A stretch of DNA of 64,000 bases. It comes from Syntrophaceae bacterium (GTDB lineage Bacteria; Desulfobacterota; Syntrophia; Syntrophales; PHBD01). Position 1 is the stretch's first letter; every line of letters starts with the position of its first letter. The notes beneath the pieces are model-generated. The model ran no database searches. It was not told the origin of the DNA and saw only the letters and a list, made by a program, of their open reading frames with translations. This document shows positions 7,512 through 55,169 of the stretch, in pieces. The stretch is from the NCBI GenBank assembly GCA_013177825.1, contig JABLXX010000001.1:520936-584935 (forward strand), written 5' to 3'. A program made the translations under genes and the position numbers.

Positions 7512-8153
7512 ATGGCCGAGCGGATCGAAATCCACCCAAGACAGCCCGATCGACGGAGCGTCGAGCGGATCGCCGATCTTCTCCGGCAGGGGGGAATTGT
7601 GGCCTACCCAACCGAGACGTTCTACGGTCTCGGGGCGGATGCCACGAATCACGACGCAGTGGACCGGATCTTCGCCGTCAAGGGGAGGGATTTCAAGAGC
7701 CCCGTCGGCCTGATCATCGGCCGAATCGAGGACCTGGACCCGCTGGTTGCGGAGATTCCGGCCGCGGGTCACAGGCTGATCGGCGCCTTCTGGCCGGGGG
7801 CGCTCACCCTGGTGTTTCGGGCGTCCGGGAGGGTCCTGCCGCGACTGACAGCGGGCACCGGAAAGATCGGAATCCGCCTGTCCGGCCTGCCGGCGGCCCG
7901 GTCCATCGCGGCCGCCCTCGGGGAACCCGTCACCGCCACCAGTGCCAACCGCTCCGGAGAAAAGGAATGCAATACGGCGAGTGAGGTCTTGGCGCAGCTC
8001 GATGATTCCATCGATGCCGTTGCGGATGGAGGTGCCACCGCCGGCGGGCTGGGATCGACCTTCGTGGACGTCTCCGGCGACGCCCCGGTCATCCTCCGGC
8101 AGGGGGCGATCGCCGAGGAGGACATCCGGCGGATTCTGGGAAAGATGTCGTAA
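7512..8153 (+). CDS. L-threonylcarbamoyladenylate synthase, Sua5/YciO/YrdC family
   Basis: A 213-residue YrdC-domain protein. It likely makes threonylcarbamoyl-AMP from threonine, bicarbonate and ATP, the first step of the t6A modification of ANN-decoding tRNAs. Visible features are AYPTETFYGLGADAT at about residues 31-45, KGRDFKSPVGLII at 58-70 and TSANRSG in the C-terminal half. It has the single-domain TsaC-like length and lacks the extra Sua5 domain. A GGAAGGAG site precedes the ATG. A strong terminator follows. YciO-type paralogues of uncertain function cannot be excluded. Confidence 0.85.
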   Translation: MAERIEIHPRQPDRRSVERIADLLRQGGIVAYPTETFYGLGADATNHDAVDRIFAVKGRDFKSPVGLIIGRIEDLDPLVAEIPAAGHRLIGAFWPGALTLVFRASGRVLPRLTAGTGKIGIRLSGLPAARSIAAALGEPVTATSANRSGEKECNTASEVLAQLDDSIDAVADGGATAGGLGSTFVDVSGDAPVILRQGAIAEEDIRRILGKMS

Positions 8154-8171: not shown

Positions 8172-8209
8172 GGGGGGCGGATATCCAATCCGTCCCCCAT
8201 CCTTTTTTC
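8172..8209 (+). terminator. Rho-independent terminator after the TsaC-like gene
   Basis: An 11-bp GC-rich stem (8172-8182 with 8188-8198, one G-U pair, 5-base loop) followed by CATCCTTTTTTCT. It starts 19 bases after the stop codon. Its sequence is repeated in inverted orientation at 8594-8633. Confidence 0.85.
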
Positions 8210-8231
8210 TCTTTCTTTCTCTTCGCATCAT

Positions 8232-8545
8232 GGCGCGGGGGCTGCCACGGGGACTCCCGCCGTCGCGAAAACGTTTCCGCTCTTCGCCTTCTGAAACCGA
8301 AGAGTCTGGGGTCCGGAAACGTTTTCCAATTGCTCCTCTGGGAACCCCCGGTCGCGCCCCCGCGAACGTTGGTCGGGGAGTGGGACTTCCCGGAGCGCGA
8401 ATAGCGGCTTTTTCGGGGCACCCTGCCGTCGCAGCGCAGCGCCCGCAAAGTCATCTGTCTCTACGCCGCTAGGCGCGAGTTATGACTTTGCAGCGGAGCG
8501 AGACGCTGCAGGGTCGAAAAAACGCTTCTGAGCGCGAGGGAAGCC
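8232..8545. repeat. ~315-bp structured intergenic repeat, copy A
   Basis: A 314-bp element whose 5' 36 bases and 3' 219 bases recur at 53655-53971 (2 and 9 differences respectively). Between them lies a copy-specific 59-base block that forms a perfect 13-bp hairpin (8267-8279 with 8314-8326) with an inner 7-bp stem (8280-8286 with 8298-8304). Flanks pair around it (CGCGGGGGC 8234-8242 with 8356-8364). The 3' part folds as nested stems: 8421-8430 with 8502-8513 (2-base bulge), 8445-8454 with 8482-8491, and 8464-8467 with 8472-8475. I do not recognise it as a known RNA family. It occupies most of the 513-base gap between convergent genes. Confidence 0.85.
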
Positions 8546-8593
8546 CTGTCCCACATGCGAGCCCCCATCGGCGCCTGATTTCTGTAAAAAAAG

Positions 8594-8633
8594 GGAAAAA
8601 TAAAGGAGGGGACGGATGGGATATCCGCCCCCC
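8594..8633 (-). terminator. Terminator for the zinc-ribbon DUF3426-like gene
   Basis: Read on the minus strand, a GGGGGGCGGAT/ATCCGTCCCC stem (8608-8617 with 8623-8633) is followed by CTCCTTTATTTTTCCC. It lies 34 bases past the stop of the gene ending at 8667, and is almost the same sequence as the terminator at 8172-8209, inverted. Confidence 0.75.
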
Positions 8634-8666: not shown

Positions 8667-9671
8667 CTATGGCAGCGCGCGCTCTGCGTCCAGTGGAATG
8701 ACCCCCGTCTTGATGATTCCCGTTTTGTCCACTCCGGCCTTGTCCAGGGCGAAGACGACCATGAACGGGATCGCCGCCCCCGGGGCCAGGCTGTCCTTGG
8801 GGGCGGGTGTGATCTGGGGGAAGGACAGGCGTTTCTGCAGGTCCTCTTCCGAGAGGCTCGCCAGCTCGGCGTCGGAGAGATGGTTCCCTGCATAGGAAAT
8901 GCGGCTTCGAATGATCCGGTCCGACGGGTCGTACAGTTTTCCCTGGATGCGGATCCGGGTCACCGTCTGGGAAGAAATGTTCTGGACGGTTCCCTCCAGG
9001 ATCATCAGATCGCCCAAAAAGACGTTGGCCATCATGCGGCGCCGGACCTGCTGGATCCGGATGTCGCCGGGGTTGACTTCCGCCTGCTGGATGTCCTTTC
9101 CGAACACGGTTTCCAGGGCGGGAACGGCGACAACGAGGTCCGAGACGACGGCCCGCCGCACGTCGGGATACAGAAAGAGGAAGGTGGTCCCGCCGATCAC
9201 CAGGATAAGAAGCACCGACAGGAAGATGAGAAGAAAGGAGGGGCGCCGCCGGGGGGCATCCGTCGCGGGAGGGACGGGCTCTTCCTCTTCCTCCTTTTCT
9301 TCCTCCGGGGACGGTCTGTCCAAGGCCCGGGGGGGATAGTCCTCGGGCATGCGCCGGGGCTCCGCCTCGCGAAGGGCCTCCCGGATCCGGTCCGCGGCCA
9401 TCATCACCGTGTCGCCCTGCCGGGGTGCATTGGAGGGAGGTTGACTTCCGGGCAGCAGGATCTTGAGGTCCGAGGCCTCGGAGAGTTCCGGAGGAGGAGC
9501 CGGCGGTTCCTCGATCGCCTCTTCCGGTTCGGGCCTGGCCGCTTCCCGCTGCGGGTTTTCCTGGAAAAAAACGGCTTTGCAGCTTGTGCACCGCACCCAG
9601 GCCCCGTCGGCTTCCATCAGGGTATCGTCAAAGCGGTATTTTGTGCCGCATGCTTCGCACCGGATGATCAT
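8667..9671 (-). CDS. Zinc-ribbon (MJ0042 type) membrane protein with DUF3426-like C-terminus
   Basis: A 334-residue protein with an N-terminal zinc ribbon (Cys5, Cys8, Cys28, Cys31), a long low-complexity acidic and proline-rich linker (about 38-140), one transmembrane helix (145-168) and a C-terminal domain of about 165 residues resembling DUF3426, predicted to lie outside the membrane. This architecture is common in Desulfobacterota and other proteobacteria, and its role is not established. A clear AAGGAGG site precedes the ATG. It follows hpt on the same strand by 55 bases and ends at its own terminator. Confidence 0.8.
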   Translation of the reverse strand: MIIRCEACGTKYRFDDTLMEADGAWVRCTSCKAVFFQENPQREAARPEPEEAIEEPPAPPPELSEASDLKILLPGSQPPSNAPRQGDTVMMAADRIREALREAEPRRMPEDYPPRALDRPSPEEEKEEEEEPVPPATDAPRRRPSFLLIFLSVLLILVIGGTTFLFLYPDVRRAVVSDLVVAVPALETVFGKDIQQAEVNPGDIRIQQVRRRMMANVFLGDLMILEGTVQNISSQTVTRIRIQGKLYDPSDRIIRSRISYAGNHLSDAELASLSEEDLQKRLSFPQITPAPKDSLAPGAAIPFMVVFALDKAGVDKTGIIKTGVIPLDAERALP

Positions 9672-9726: not shown

Positions 9727-10257
9727 TCACTTTCCCGCGTTCAGGACGCAGACGTCGGGAAGAAAGCGGCCCTGTTCGTCGAAGTCGAGTCCGTAGCCGA
9801 TGACGAAACCATCGTCCATGGTGAACCCCACGAAATCCGCCTCGAAGGGAACCTTCCGGCGGAGCTTCTTGTCGAGGAAGGCGCAGACTTTCAGACTCCG
9901 GGGATTGCGGGCCCGCAGGTTCTCTACGAGGTAGGTCAGGGTGAGGCCCGTGTCGATGATGTCCTCGACAATGAGGACGTCCTTCCCGGTGATGTCGGTC
10001 TCGATGTCCTTGGTGAGTTCGATCCGGCCGGATGTTTCCGTGCCGGAGCCGTAGCTGGCAACGCGGATGAAGTCGATCCGGCAGGGAATGCGGAGGGCCC
10101 GGACAAGATCGGCCATGAACATGAAGGCCCCCTTCAGAACGCCGATGACGACGAGATTGCGGTCTTCGTAGGCCCTGGAGACCTCTTCCCCCAGTTCGAG
10201 AACCCTCTCCCGGATGGCTTCCCGGGAATAGAGGACCGATTTTCTCATGGCCTCCAT
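9727..10257 (-). CDS. hpt: Hypoxanthine phosphoribosyltransferase
   Basis: A 176-residue type I phosphoribosyltransferase that salvages hypoxanthine (and usually guanine) with PRPP to form IMP or GMP. The PRPP-binding motif VLIVEDIIDTGLTL spans residues 94-107, and LKGAFMFMADL (about 41-51) and the C-terminal VGFTMDDGFVIGYGLD block are typical. The ATG at 10257 is chosen because AAGGAGGG lies six bases upstream; the ATG two codons earlier abuts the ribosome binding site. It lies between the Cys-rich gene and the zinc-ribbon gene and near purU, so this strand carries several purine-related genes. Confidence 0.92.
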   Translation of the reverse strand: MEAMRKSVLYSREAIRERVLELGEEVSRAYEDRNLVVIGVLKGAFMFMADLVRALRIPCRIDFIRVASYGSGTETSGRIELTKDIETDITGKDVLIVEDIIDTGLTLTYLVENLRARNPRSLKVCAFLDKKLRRKVPFEADFVGFTMDDGFVIGYGLDFDEQGRFLPDVCVLNAGK

Positions 10258-10327
10258 CGCCATCCCTCCTTATGTTGCCGATTTTCCATATCTTATGTGC
10301 CCACCCCTGTCAACCCGAAATCCTTCC

Positions 10328-11143
10328 TCAGGCCGCGCCGCCAAAGGCCCGGGCGAAGGTCTCGATATGGGATTCGATGATCGCCTCCGCCTGCCGGAGG
10401 TCGTCCGCGGTCCGGAGCTCCGAGGAGAGGCTGAGAAAAATCCGGTCGAAGGGGGATCGCTCACATCCCAGGGCGTCGTAGTCGATGAAGGAGATCATGT
10501 ACTGGGAGCCGTCGAAGTAGTATTTCCCCAGCCGGTTTACGTCGGGAGAGCGGAAGGGCCAGTTCAGCTTGAGCTCGAAGTAGGCGAGGGCCTTCTCCCG
10601 GGTCGGCCCTTCCCGGAAGGCCTCCGGCGGGGGCATGCGGCCGACACGCTCGCTGATCAGGCGGAAATACTCTTTGGAGAAGTCGATGTCCGTCACGCAC
10701 AGGCCGAAGAGGTACCAGTCGTCCAGGAGGTCCACGAGGGCCCGCTGCTCCGCCGGGGCCAGGTAGGTGTAGCTGGGGCAGAAGTGGCCGTCGCAGAGCT
10801 CCCGGCCGTAGAAGGAGGCGTCCCGCAGGTCCCGCCCCTCGTTCTGCATCGGATGGAGGAGGCATCCCACCTGCGTTTCTTCCTCATTCAGGAAACCGAC
10901 GAACTCGCAGCAGTAGATGACCTCATAGCGCTTCGTCGGGTCTTCCTCCTGCAGAACGAGGCGCGAGAAGGTCTCCGGATCGAAGTCCGGACCGGCCAGG
11001 CGACGGTAGAGGGTGGTGCGGCGACGGAAGCGCCGGACGAGGGATTCCCGGGTGCTGTCGGCGTAGTTGTAGATGCCGCAGCAGGCCCCGCATGACTGGG
11101 CACCGGGCTGGCAGAGATGGACGAAATCGGGTCCCCGGTTCAT
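10328..11143 (-). CDS. Cysteine-rich protein of unknown function (CxxCC metal-binding type)
   Basis: A 271-residue protein with nine cysteines in patterns that suggest a metal site: Cys11, Cys18, Cys21, Cys22, then Cys78-Cys79, Cys94, Cys117 and Cys122. The CGACCGIYN start is reminiscent of YkgJ/CxxCxxCC zinc- or iron-chelating proteins, but the protein is longer and I cannot place it firmly. The C-terminal half is helical and Cys-poor. It starts 12 bases after purU ends, with a weak ribosome binding site, so it is probably cotranscribed with purU. Confidence 0.65.
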   Translation of the reverse strand: MNRGPDFVHLCQPGAQSCGACCGIYNYADSTRESLVRRFRRRTTLYRRLAGPDFDPETFSRLVLQEEDPTKRYEVIYCCEFVGFLNEEETQVGCLLHPMQNEGRDLRDASFYGRELCDGHFCPSYTYLAPAEQRALVDLLDDWYLFGLCVTDIDFSKEYFRLISERVGRMPPPEAFREGPTREKALAYFELKLNWPFRSPDVNRLGKYYFDGSQYMISFIDYDALGCERSPFDRIFLSLSSELRTADDLRQAEAIIESHIETFARAFGGAA

Positions 11144-39931: not shown

Positions 39932-39988
39932 GGCTGCTGAAAACGGCCGTCTGCTTTGTTCCCCTCATCCCGCACCGCTCGACGTACG
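39932..39988 (+). repeat. Half copy of the palindromic intergenic repeat
   Basis: Matches one arm of the 54002-54121 palindrome at about 85% over 57 bases, from GGCTGCTGAAAA to CTCGACGTACG, ending where the palindrome centre would be. It starts immediately after the trkH stop. Confidence 0.75.
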
Positions 39989-40029: not shown

Positions 40030-40063
40030 GGCGCTGGGGGCTGCCACGGGGATTCCCGCCGTC
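40030..40063 (+). repeat. 5' fragment of the ~315-bp structured repeat (copy C)
   Basis: The first 34 bases of the element (GGCGCTGGGGGCTGCC onward) are present; the match ends one base before the stop codon of the DUF523 gene at 40065. Three or four differences to copies A and B. Confidence 0.75.
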
Positions 40064-40064
40064 T

Positions 40065-41018
40065 TCAGGCGTGGTTGCGGAGCTTCAGCTCTTGCGGGTG
40101 GGGGTTCAGGTAGACTTGGTCTTTCAGGTAGGGCTCGTCGAACTTCCGGACGTAGTGGCGGATCAGGGTGACCGGGACGATCAGCGGGATCTCGCCCCGC
40201 CGGTAATCTCCGATGACCTCCTGCAGCTCCTGCCGCTCGGCGGCGGAGAGCTGTTTTTTGAAATAGCCCGCCATGTGCTGGAGGACGTTGGCGTTCTTGG
40301 CCGGCGTGGCCTTGAGCCGGAGGGCCTCCATCATGAGCTTTTCGTACCGGGCGTAAAGCTCGTCCGCCGGGATCGTTCCGGCCATCGCCACCAGCTTCCC
40401 CATCTCGCGGTAGTGCTTTTCGCTGTGGGCGAGGAGGAAAAGCTTGTGGGTCGAGTGGAAACGCACCAGGCTCGACGGCGTCCGGCCCGATTCGTTCAGC
40501 TCCTGCCAGCGCCTGCAGGCGAAGATCCGCTCGATGAAGTTTTCCCGGAGGAGCGGGTCCTGGAGGCGCCCCTCTTCCTCCACCGGCAGGAGAGGAAAGC
40601 GCTCCATGAAGATCCGGGCAAAGATGCCCGAGCCTTTCCGGATGGTCCGCCCGTCTCCCTCGTCATGGACATTCACCCGCTCCATGCCGCTGGAGGGGGA
40701 CCTGCTCTTGAAGACGAATCCGCAGAGTCCTTCCTTCTCCAGTTCGGCCACGCGGCGGTCGGCCCAGGCCTCCATTCGGCCGGTGAGATCCCGCCTTGAG
40801 CGGGTGGTGACCAGGCGGGGCCTCGCCGGGTCGCCCTCCAGGTGCATCGACTCCCGGGGAACCCCCAGCCCGCATTCCACCTCGGGGCAGACGGGAACGT
40901 ACTCCACATAGGCTCCAAGGGTGTCCCGCAGGTAGCGGTCCAGCTTGTGGCCGCCGTCGAAGCGGACGTTCTCTCCGAGGAGGCAGGAGCTGATACCGAG
41001 GCGGATTCTGTCCATCAT
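40065..41018 (-). CDS. DUF523 and DUF1722 fusion protein
   Basis: A 317-residue protein. The N-terminal DUF523 domain has GISSCLLGENVRFDGGHK at 8-25 and VCPEVECGLGVPRESM near 43-58; the C-terminal DUF1722 domain (about 195-310) includes HSTHKLFLLAHSEKHYREMG and AGYFKKQLSAAERQEL. The pairing is common in bacteria, and its function is not established, although relatives occur near photolyase and thiol-metabolism genes. Its start overlaps the stop of a 60-residue ORF (ATGA). Confidence 0.85.
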   Translation of the reverse strand: MMDRIRLGISSCLLGENVRFDGGHKLDRYLRDTLGAYVEYVPVCPEVECGLGVPRESMHLEGDPARPRLVTTRSRRDLTGRMEAWADRRVAELEKEGLCGFVFKSRSPSSGMERVNVHDEGDGRTIRKGSGIFARIFMERFPLLPVEEEGRLQDPLLRENFIERIFACRRWQELNESGRTPSSLVRFHSTHKLFLLAHSEKHYREMGKLVAMAGTIPADELYARYEKLMMEALRLKATPAKNANVLQHMAGYFKKQLSAAERQELQEVIGDYRRGEIPLIVPVTLIRHYVRKFDEPYLKDQVYLNPHPQELKLRNHA

Positions 41019-52433: not shown

Positions 52434-53597
<1,164 letters not shown>

Positions 53598-53624: not shown

Positions 53625-53654
53625 CTACGACGCCGCAGCATACTTTTCTTCCAG

Positions 53655-53971
53655 GGCGCGGGGGCTGCCACGGGGGCTTCCGCCGTCGCGGCCTTTTTTC
53701 CCGCGATTTGTCGTCGACGGCCAGGAAGGCTGGAGGGATGGGAAAAAAGTCCCAATTGCTCCTCTGGGAACCCCCGGTCACGCCCCCGCGAACGTCGGTC
53801 GGGGAGTGGGGCTTCCCGGAGCGCGAATAGCGGCTTTTTCGGGGCACCCTGCCGTCGCAGCGCAGCGGCCGCAAAGTCATCTGTCTCTACGCCGTCCGGC
53901 GCGAGTTATGACTTTGCAGTGGAGCGAGACGATGCAGGGTCGAAAAAACGCTTCTGAGCGCGAGGGAAGCC
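53655..53971. repeat. ~315-bp structured intergenic repeat, copy B
   Basis: Matches copy A (8232-8545) in the first 36 and last 219 bases (2 and 9 differences). The intervening 62 bases differ from copy A but form a perfect 10-bp hairpin at the same place (53693-53702 with 53740-53749). Paired segments kept in both copies: CGCGGGGGC 53657-53665 with 53782-53790; 53847-53856 with 53928-53939 (2-base bulge); 53871-53880 with 53908-53917; CGCC/GGCG around the variable loop GTCC at 53894-53897. Confidence 0.85.
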
Positions 53972-54001
53972 TCTCTCACACGTATTTCCATGAATCAACC
54001 C

Positions 54002-54121
54002 GGCTGTTCAAAAAGGGTTGAATGCAAGGCGCCCGAAATCCCGGTCCGCGAGGCGTACCAAGTGGTACGTCGAGCGGAGCGGGATGAGGGCAACGCAGCA
54101 GACGCCCTTTTTCAACAGCCG
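54002..54121. repeat. Palindromic intergenic repeat, full copy
   Basis: A 120-base imperfect palindrome centred at 54061-54062: outer arms GGCTGTT.AAAAAGGG pair with the 3' end, and the centre is CGTACC, AAGT, GGTACG. Half copies lie at 39932-39988 and, more degenerate, at 16911-16951. It lies 30 bases after repeat copy B and seven bases before the queA stop. No transposase is present; it resembles REP or MITE-like elements. Confidence 0.8.
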
Positions 54122-54128
54122 TTCACAG

Positions 54129-55169
54129 TTACAGGATCAGCATCGCATCCCCATAACTATAAAACCGGAATCCATCCTCCACGGCCCGGCGGTAGGCCTC
54201 CTTCATCCGCTCCGTTCCGGCGAAGGCGCAGACCAGGACGAAAAGGGACGACCGGGGGAGGTGAAAGTTCGTCACCATGGCCCCGGCGCAGCGGAACCGG
54301 TGTCCGGGTCGGATGAACAGGTCTGTGTATCCCTCCCCGGCGGCCACTCGCCCGTTCTCGTCGGCCAGGGTCTCCAGAACCCGGGTGGAGGTCGTCCCGA
54401 CGGCCACCACGCGCCGGGCTTGGTTGATCAGGCGGGCCGCCTCGCCGGTCAGCTCGTAATGCTCCGCGTCCAGGCGGGTGTTTTCCACCGGACCCTCCGG
54501 AAGGGGCTGGAAAGTGCCGTATCCCACATGGAGCGTCAGGCGCGCGGTGAGGATATCCCGCTTTTCCAGATCTGCAAAAATCGCCGGAGTGAAGTGGAGC
54601 CCCGCCGTGGGAGCCGCCACGGAGCCGGGCGCCCGGGCATACACCGTCTGGTAGCGCTCGCGGTCTGCCGGAGTACTCGAATCTCCGGCAACGCGTCGGA
54701 TGTATGGTGGCAGGGGAGGCCGTCCATGGCGATCCAGGTAGGCGTCGAAGGTGTCTGTGGTTTGAAATGCAAGGAGCCACTTTTTGTCCGAAATGCGTTC
54801 CCGGATCTCCGCCTCGGCGCCCTCGGGGAGTAGAATCCGGTCGCCCGGCCGGAGTCGGCGGGCCGGCCGCAGGAGGGCCTCCCAGGTTCGCCTCTCCGGG
54901 TCTACTCCCGCCGGAAGCGGGAGAAGCAGGATCTCCACGGCGCCCCCGGTTTCCCGCCGTCCGTTCAGCCGTGCCGGGATGACCCGCGAGTCGTTGACGA
55001 CCAGGACATCTCCCGGTTGCAGGAGGTCCGGAAGATCGGCGAAAACACGCTCCTCCGACCCGTCCCGGCCCCGCCGGACCACCAGCAGGCGCGACCGGTC
55101 GCGCTCCGCCGCCGGCTCCTGGGCGATCCGCTCGGGGGGAAGGCAATAGTCGAAGGCCGACGGGTCCAT
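54129..55169 (-). CDS. queA: S-adenosylmethionine:tRNA ribosyltransferase-isomerase
   Basis: A 346-residue enzyme that converts preQ1 in tRNA to epoxyqueuosine, the step after tgt. It starts with FDYCLPPERIAQEPA, followed by LVVNDSRVIPARL and AAPTAGLHFT, all QueA motifs. It lies upstream of tgt on the same strand, but about 540 bases of repeats separate the two, so they may be transcribed separately. Confidence 0.95.
   Translation of the reverse strand: MDPSAFDYCLPPERIAQEPAAERDRSRLLVVRRGRDGSEERVFADLPDLLQPGDVLVVNDSRVIPARLNGRRETGGAVEILLLPLPAGVDPERRTWEALLRPARRLRPGDRILLPEGAEAEIRERISDKKWLLAFQTTDTFDAYLDRHGRPPLPPYIRRVAGDSSTPADRERYQTVYARAPGSVAAPTAGLHFTPAIFADLEKRDILTARLTLHVGYGTFQPLPEGPVENTRLDAEHYELTGEAARLINQARRVVAVGTTSTRVLETLADENGRVAAGEGYTDLFIRPGHRFRCAGAMVTNFHLPRSSLFVLVCAFAGTERMKEAYRRAVEDGFRFYSYGDAMLIL

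Follow-up and report, generated by a model that had tools for sequence, protein, structure and literature searches.

The repeat of about 315 bp at positions 8232–8545 of the window (the whole 64,000-nucleotide stretch of DNA that was analyzed) is a composite of two modules, A and B, of which module B is an older unit. The core of module B is present in many copies, with a patchy distribution, in bacteria of at least three phyla, and its fold is conserved over that range, with compensated stems and fixed loops. We put at about even the chance that the repeat belongs to a family of non-autonomous interspersed elements, so far unnamed and extending across phyla, whose defining part is the folded core of B and which are spread or recognized as a folded strand and kept by recombination. 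A broader proposal, to which we give slightly less than even chances, is that dispersed repeats in Desulfobacterota, Bacillota and Bacteroidota make up a single unnamed structural family whose stems drift under pairing and whose two internal loops are fixed, implying a widespread protein that reads the fold and moves or uses it. In bacteria, interspersed repeats seldom reach beyond a genus or family and are as a rule recognized by their sequence; a repeat that is instead defined by its structure, with freely compensated stems and constant loops, and that reaches at least three phyla suggests a new recognizer.

The window contains two full copies with both modules on the forward strand, copy 1 at 8232–8545, closed by the outer stem CGCGGGGGC/GCCCCCGCG, and copy 2 at 53655–53971, between tgt (52434–53594) and queA (54129–55169), both encoded on the minus strand. 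An earlier note on this DNA had pointed to their near identity, and its counts hold: 8327–8545 and 53753–53971 differ at exactly 9 of 219 positions, the first 36 bases of both copies differ at 2, and the 34-base fragment at 40030–40063 (forward strand; 94% identity, E 2e-8) is a piece of module A, from its 5' arm, and sits at the 3' end of a DUF1722 gene (40065–41018, minus strand). All the stems that it named are present as well: the outer stem, 8268–8278/8315–8325, GCAAAGTCAT/ATGACTTTGC, and CGCC/GGCG with a variable tetraloop. The fold z-scores of the two full copies are −4.0 and −4.1, and none of the dinucleotide-preserving shuffles was equally stable. The note had taken the repeat for a single unit of about 315 bp occurring in three places; modules A and B are in fact separable, and a search of the genome (4.24 Mb, 25 contigs) found about 50 matching places (51 by blast, about 22 of them full-length).

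Alignment of 21 copies showed that module A (8232–8368, forward strand) consists of a constant 5' arm (8232–8267) and a 3' arm that frame a hairpin. The stem of this hairpin (8268–8278/8315–8325) varies in sequence between copies with its pairing kept: it is AAAACGTTTCC/GGAAACGTTTT in copy 1 and, still paired, TTTTTTCCC/GGGAAAAAA, AGAATTTTCC/GGAAAATTCT or CATTTTTCC/GGAAAAATG in others. Module A was also found without B in the genome search. At five loci (L071, L072, L073, L074 and L079) its inner hairpin is about 150 bp above the usual length, and for this reason the interior of A looks like an insertion place for other palindromes. Module B (8369–8545, forward strand) is a long imperfect hairpin and is the portion common to other families and phyla; it measures about 170–200 bp, and the composite about 450–490 bp. 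The B core of copy 1 (8398–8530, forward strand), which represents this copy in the covariance model R1 built on B cores, scored 121.8 bits in the genome search (G000:C1:529333–529465). It includes a stem of variable sequence (8445–8491, forward strand) with the arms GCAAAGTCAT (8445–8454) and ATGACTTTGC (8482–8491), inside which lie the inner loop CTGTCTCTA/CGAGTT and the apical CGCC-GCTA-GGCG. The family form of CTGTCTCTA is CTGTYTGAG, and both window copies depart from the family in this one loop, having CTGTCTCTA instead of CTGTCTGAG.

Used alone as a DNA query, B matched in 14 of 60 relatives. A search pattern that specified chiefly loop bases and hardly constrained the stem was applied to data with one genome per species and returned 52 stretches, mostly from Syntrophales and other Deltaproteobacteria, with further matches in a termite-gut Peptococcaceae, in Lutispora saccharofermentans and in Flavilitoribacter nigricans. 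The 52 cores were aligned for R1, which detected B in 86 of 149 genomes of the order (assigned to Syntrophales by record titles), often in at least 20 copies, with a patchy distribution in which many complete genomes have none, and in 31 of 297 genomes of a phylum sample. The model also found 36 places in Lutispora, 9 in the termite-gut Peptococcaceae MAG and 1 in Flavilitoribacter; within the class of Lutispora, 4 of 196 genomes were positive. Copy number is very uneven among related genomes. In Flavilitoribacter, the one copy is separated by about 0.8 kb from a candidate phage-type tyrosine integrase gene (L153 6920–8002).

The loop-based pattern left the stem almost free, so pairing in the stem is an independent test of the fold. 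Among 32 unique pairs of arms picked by loop sequence alone, stem pairing was 8.1, compared with 5.2 ± 0.32 when arms were exchanged, and 0 of 2000 shuffles reached the observed value. In the B alignment 94.6% of cells pair and 16 of 28 pairs have changed on both sides; the covariation score is 0.319, versus 0.127 for shuffled and 0.04–0.08 for slid alignments. Covariation, which the earlier note had proposed as a check, is therefore strong. Stem positions switch among A-U, G-C, C-G and U-A, with no G-U intermediates at the freely varying ones, and the loops AGCGNCCGC, TGTYTGAG, CGAGTT and GCAGCGNAGCGA scarcely vary. The constancy of the first three is partly due to selection, as all three are in the search pattern; loop neighbors outside the pattern, such as GCAGCG and GGTCG, are also largely constant.

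At many loci the repeated unit is longer still: a pyrimidine-rich tract on its left side and a purine-rich tract on its right side each lead to a palindrome, in most cases CGGATTTSAAATCCG, and the two palindromes form a pair. Next to copy 1, a terminator scan found a left terminator-like palindrome (GGGGGGCGGATATCCAATCCGTCCCCC, then a T-rich tract; 8172–8198, forward strand), which is the terminator of the upstream Sua5/YrdC gene (7512–8153) and the left border of the exchangeable unit; the pyrimidine-rich tract with GCATCRTGGCGC that follows (8199–8231, forward strand) is common to several copies in the oriented flanks of 21. On the other side, a purine-rich tract complementary to it (8586–8606, forward strand) leads to a right terminator-like palindrome (8607–8633, minus strand) that serves the convergent DUF3426 gene (8667–9671, minus strand). 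The two terminators face inward and form inverted repeats (8166–8230 matches 8634–8586, 84%), and with terminators on both sides gene transcripts should mostly end before copy 1, within which a scan found no sigma-70-like promoter. Copy 1 sits between convergent genes, Sua5/YrdC and DUF3426, a position taken by 10 of the 19 full copies that could be classified with a rough coding-bias method; copy 2 lies within the queA-tgt gene pair and is without flanking palindromes. The palindrome consensus CGGATTTSAAATCCG occurs at 30 sites genome-wide, and because it is used at places without the element it is not by itself a transposon end. Terminator-like palindromes of this form are reused at many gene ends in the genome, and the two palindromes that flank one copy are sometimes the same rare variant (CGGATATCC at L001, GGATTTCGAATCC at L015).

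Comparison with a sister species (G001) revealed what happens to copies in place. Since most repeat sites occur in both genomes, the comparison gives no evidence of recent transposition, and it yielded no clean empty site bearing a target duplication. The region of copy 2 (53633–54063) is missing in G001; this gap also takes half of a neighboring repeat, for which reason the absence may be a deletion. Copies have been exchanged, and orthologues are therefore usually no closer than paralogues: at 10 of 12 loci, some paralogue outranks the B copy of the orthologous site. In our genome, L009 matches L013 almost base for base between the palindromes, and its G001 orthologue is of another subtype; the L013 copy has overwritten L009 as far as the palindromes. 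Module B is reversed with both flanks aligned at two locus pairs (L005/L255 and L022/L226, the reversed B being truncated at L226), where in G001 module A flanks B on either side, in inverted order, and with one flank assembled at three loci (L008, L014 and L018), some of which may be larger rearrangements because the G001 assembly breaks inside repeats. In these reversals B is bounded by inverted repeats, formed either by copies of A or by palindromes. In L001 versus L083, the outer palindromes of a locus have changed along with its stem arms. Shared sites whose contents have been exchanged and reversed between species constitute a natural experiment on the evolution of palindromic repeats after insertion.

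At the two loci where orthologues are preserved (L012 and L013), the element diverges by 1.0 and 1.3%, compared with 17–27% at the third codon positions beside them, and B at L012 is identical between the two species. With all loci taken together, interspecies divergence of B is about 7%, which does not exceed its divergence inside a single genome and compares with those 17–27% at third codon positions. Copying among loci of one genome would not, by itself, be expected to keep two species similar, and B as a family therefore appears to be under constraint: it may have a host function, or poorly folded copies may fail to spread. An alternative is transfer between the two species. The low divergence, above all the identical B at L012, would also be expected of a host function.

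Several searches were directed at a partner, a carrier or a known family. No mobility gene recurs near 87 loci, and neighboring genes were dismissed as a source of partners, as only transporter-like and other ordinary families recur beside copies. The terminator palindromes were considered as ends of a 3.2-kb autonomous element (C5:310774–313985) and rejected, since ordinary-looking genes lie inside and the palindrome is a general terminator. A phage or plasmid carrier was likewise set aside: one core copy used as query had no match in plasmids and phages, and the pattern had 1 match in 2.9 million viral contigs. A literature search for the B loop sequence gave no match in a relevant context. 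With R1 the family has become searchable, and a partner protein can be sought by co-occurrence.

The ERIC/IRU and RU-type elements of enterobacteria are long imperfect intergenic palindromes with complementary changes in their arms. B too is a long imperfect palindrome with complementary substitutions, a likeness in working and not one of membership: one full copy had no match in 5,426 E. coli genomes (sensitive blastn, E 0.01), and B spans at least three phyla. In integron attC sites the stems vary, the fold is kept and recognition is of single-stranded DNA. The stems of B likewise vary in sequence under a kept fold; unlike attC sites, however, copies of the repeat are dispersed singly and not in cassette arrays, and the R box RYYYAAC/GTTRRRY is absent in the aligned cores, where the three bases before AAC are not all pyrimidines (for example GGCAAC, GAAAAC). 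The repeat resembles a MITE in being short, non-coding, multi-copy and patchy and in having inverted repeats, but its internal loops are constant. The search turned up neither a target duplication nor a parental insertion sequence; no transposase gene recurred near the 87 loci, though a distant parent may exist, and the sole site found without the element, looked at for a MITE-type target-site duplication, is also without half of an adjacent repeat. Multicopy palindromic families with intergenic, non-random positions have been described in a deltaproteobacterium, Geobacter bemidjiensis (PMC2996986), and by this description they resemble the repeat.

REP elements are palindromes of 20–50 nt with a conserved tetranucleotide, usually GTAG, in front, and TnpA_REP acts on them as folded single strands (PMC8266576). 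The repeat shares with the REP/BIME/REPIN and TnpA_REP (RAYT) system its many palindromic intergenic copies, a presumed recognition as folded strands, and paired inverted units; it differs in being larger, in having no Y1 gene in its own genome, and in having fixed inner loops instead of a fixed tetranucleotide at the foot. That these are REP-type elements moved by a Y1 HUH transposase is very improbable and was already disfavored. GTAG before the hairpin is not among the conserved columns of the 52 aligned cores, and a Y1 HUH (PF01797) gene is absent in the genome itself, in the sister and in four further B-rich genomes, but is found in 9 of 11 B-free genomes; over 30 genomes its presence shows no link with the abundance of B, and this partner was rejected. 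The repeat works like REP or ERIC elements but does not qualify as a member of either group. A B copy and a Y1 transposase gene are about 0.6 kb apart in one case (G311:C448:9388–9516 and 10159–10488), the sole such close pair noticed, which may be chance.

The model that we favor is as follows. In this genus B is joined to module A, itself palindromic, and terminator palindromes often stand on either side of the pair. B probably spread as a folded single strand, with DNA likelier than RNA, and would still be recognized in that form, its constant loops being read by a putative recombinase or binding protein. Copies in place would be overwritten and flipped by homologous recombination or by template switching between inverted repeats, and gene ends, above all those between convergent genes, may best tolerate this. 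Of the two possibilities raised in the earlier note, a mobile non-autonomous element and a structured regulator made of RNA or DNA, the multi-copy, patchy and intergenic spread fits the first. We lean weakly toward DNA on circumstantial points, namely that copy 1 has a terminator on either side, that orientation to genes is not kept, and that G-U pairs are not clearly enriched, the last of these being a weak point. The opposite reading, in which B is transcribed, whether into a small RNA or as an element at the 3' end of messages, and binds a protein through its constant GA/GA-type inner loop, is rather unlikely. It would account for the strong covariation, the fixed loops and the constraint on B, and the inner loop TGTYTGAG/CGAGTT may resemble a kink-turn with a longer bulge. 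On the forward strand, G-U cells slightly exceed A-C cells (32 to 14, 46 to 20 and 22 to 10), but by pair types this excess nearly vanishes (36 to 28). As the earlier note had supposed in seeing no known RNA motif, the window has no Rfam match at the gathering score, weak matches for copy 1 and seven relatives lying far below threshold; this, together with the missing promoter and flanking terminators of copy 1, the varying orientation relative to genes and the many complete relatives without B, argues against an RNA.

The position of 10 of 19 classifiable copies between convergent genes, the inward terminator pair at copy 1 with similar palindromes at many others, and the keeping of most sites between species despite turnover of their contents are consistent with a BIME-like host DNA element, a cruciform or hairpin bound between convergent genes that serves chromosome structure or transcription insulation. 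We regard this as improbable given the very uneven copy number between related genomes and given copy 2, which sits within the queA-tgt pair, has no palindromes at its sides and does not occur in the sister species. Compensated stems might instead arise when template switching corrects imperfect palindromes, without selection on the fold; the joint change of stem arms and outer palindromes within a locus (L001 versus L083; flank pairs) and the lack of G-U intermediates speak for this, which we nevertheless hold to be quite improbable, as it leaves unexplained the loop neighbors that are constant across phyla and the low divergence of the whole of B.

A second palindromic repeat family, of about 119 bp (GGCTGTTCAAAAAGG...TTTTTCAACAGCC), is present in the window at 54002–54120 and 39932–39987. 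It has many copies in the sister genome, and sequence related to it is seemingly nested within the module A hairpin of some copies.
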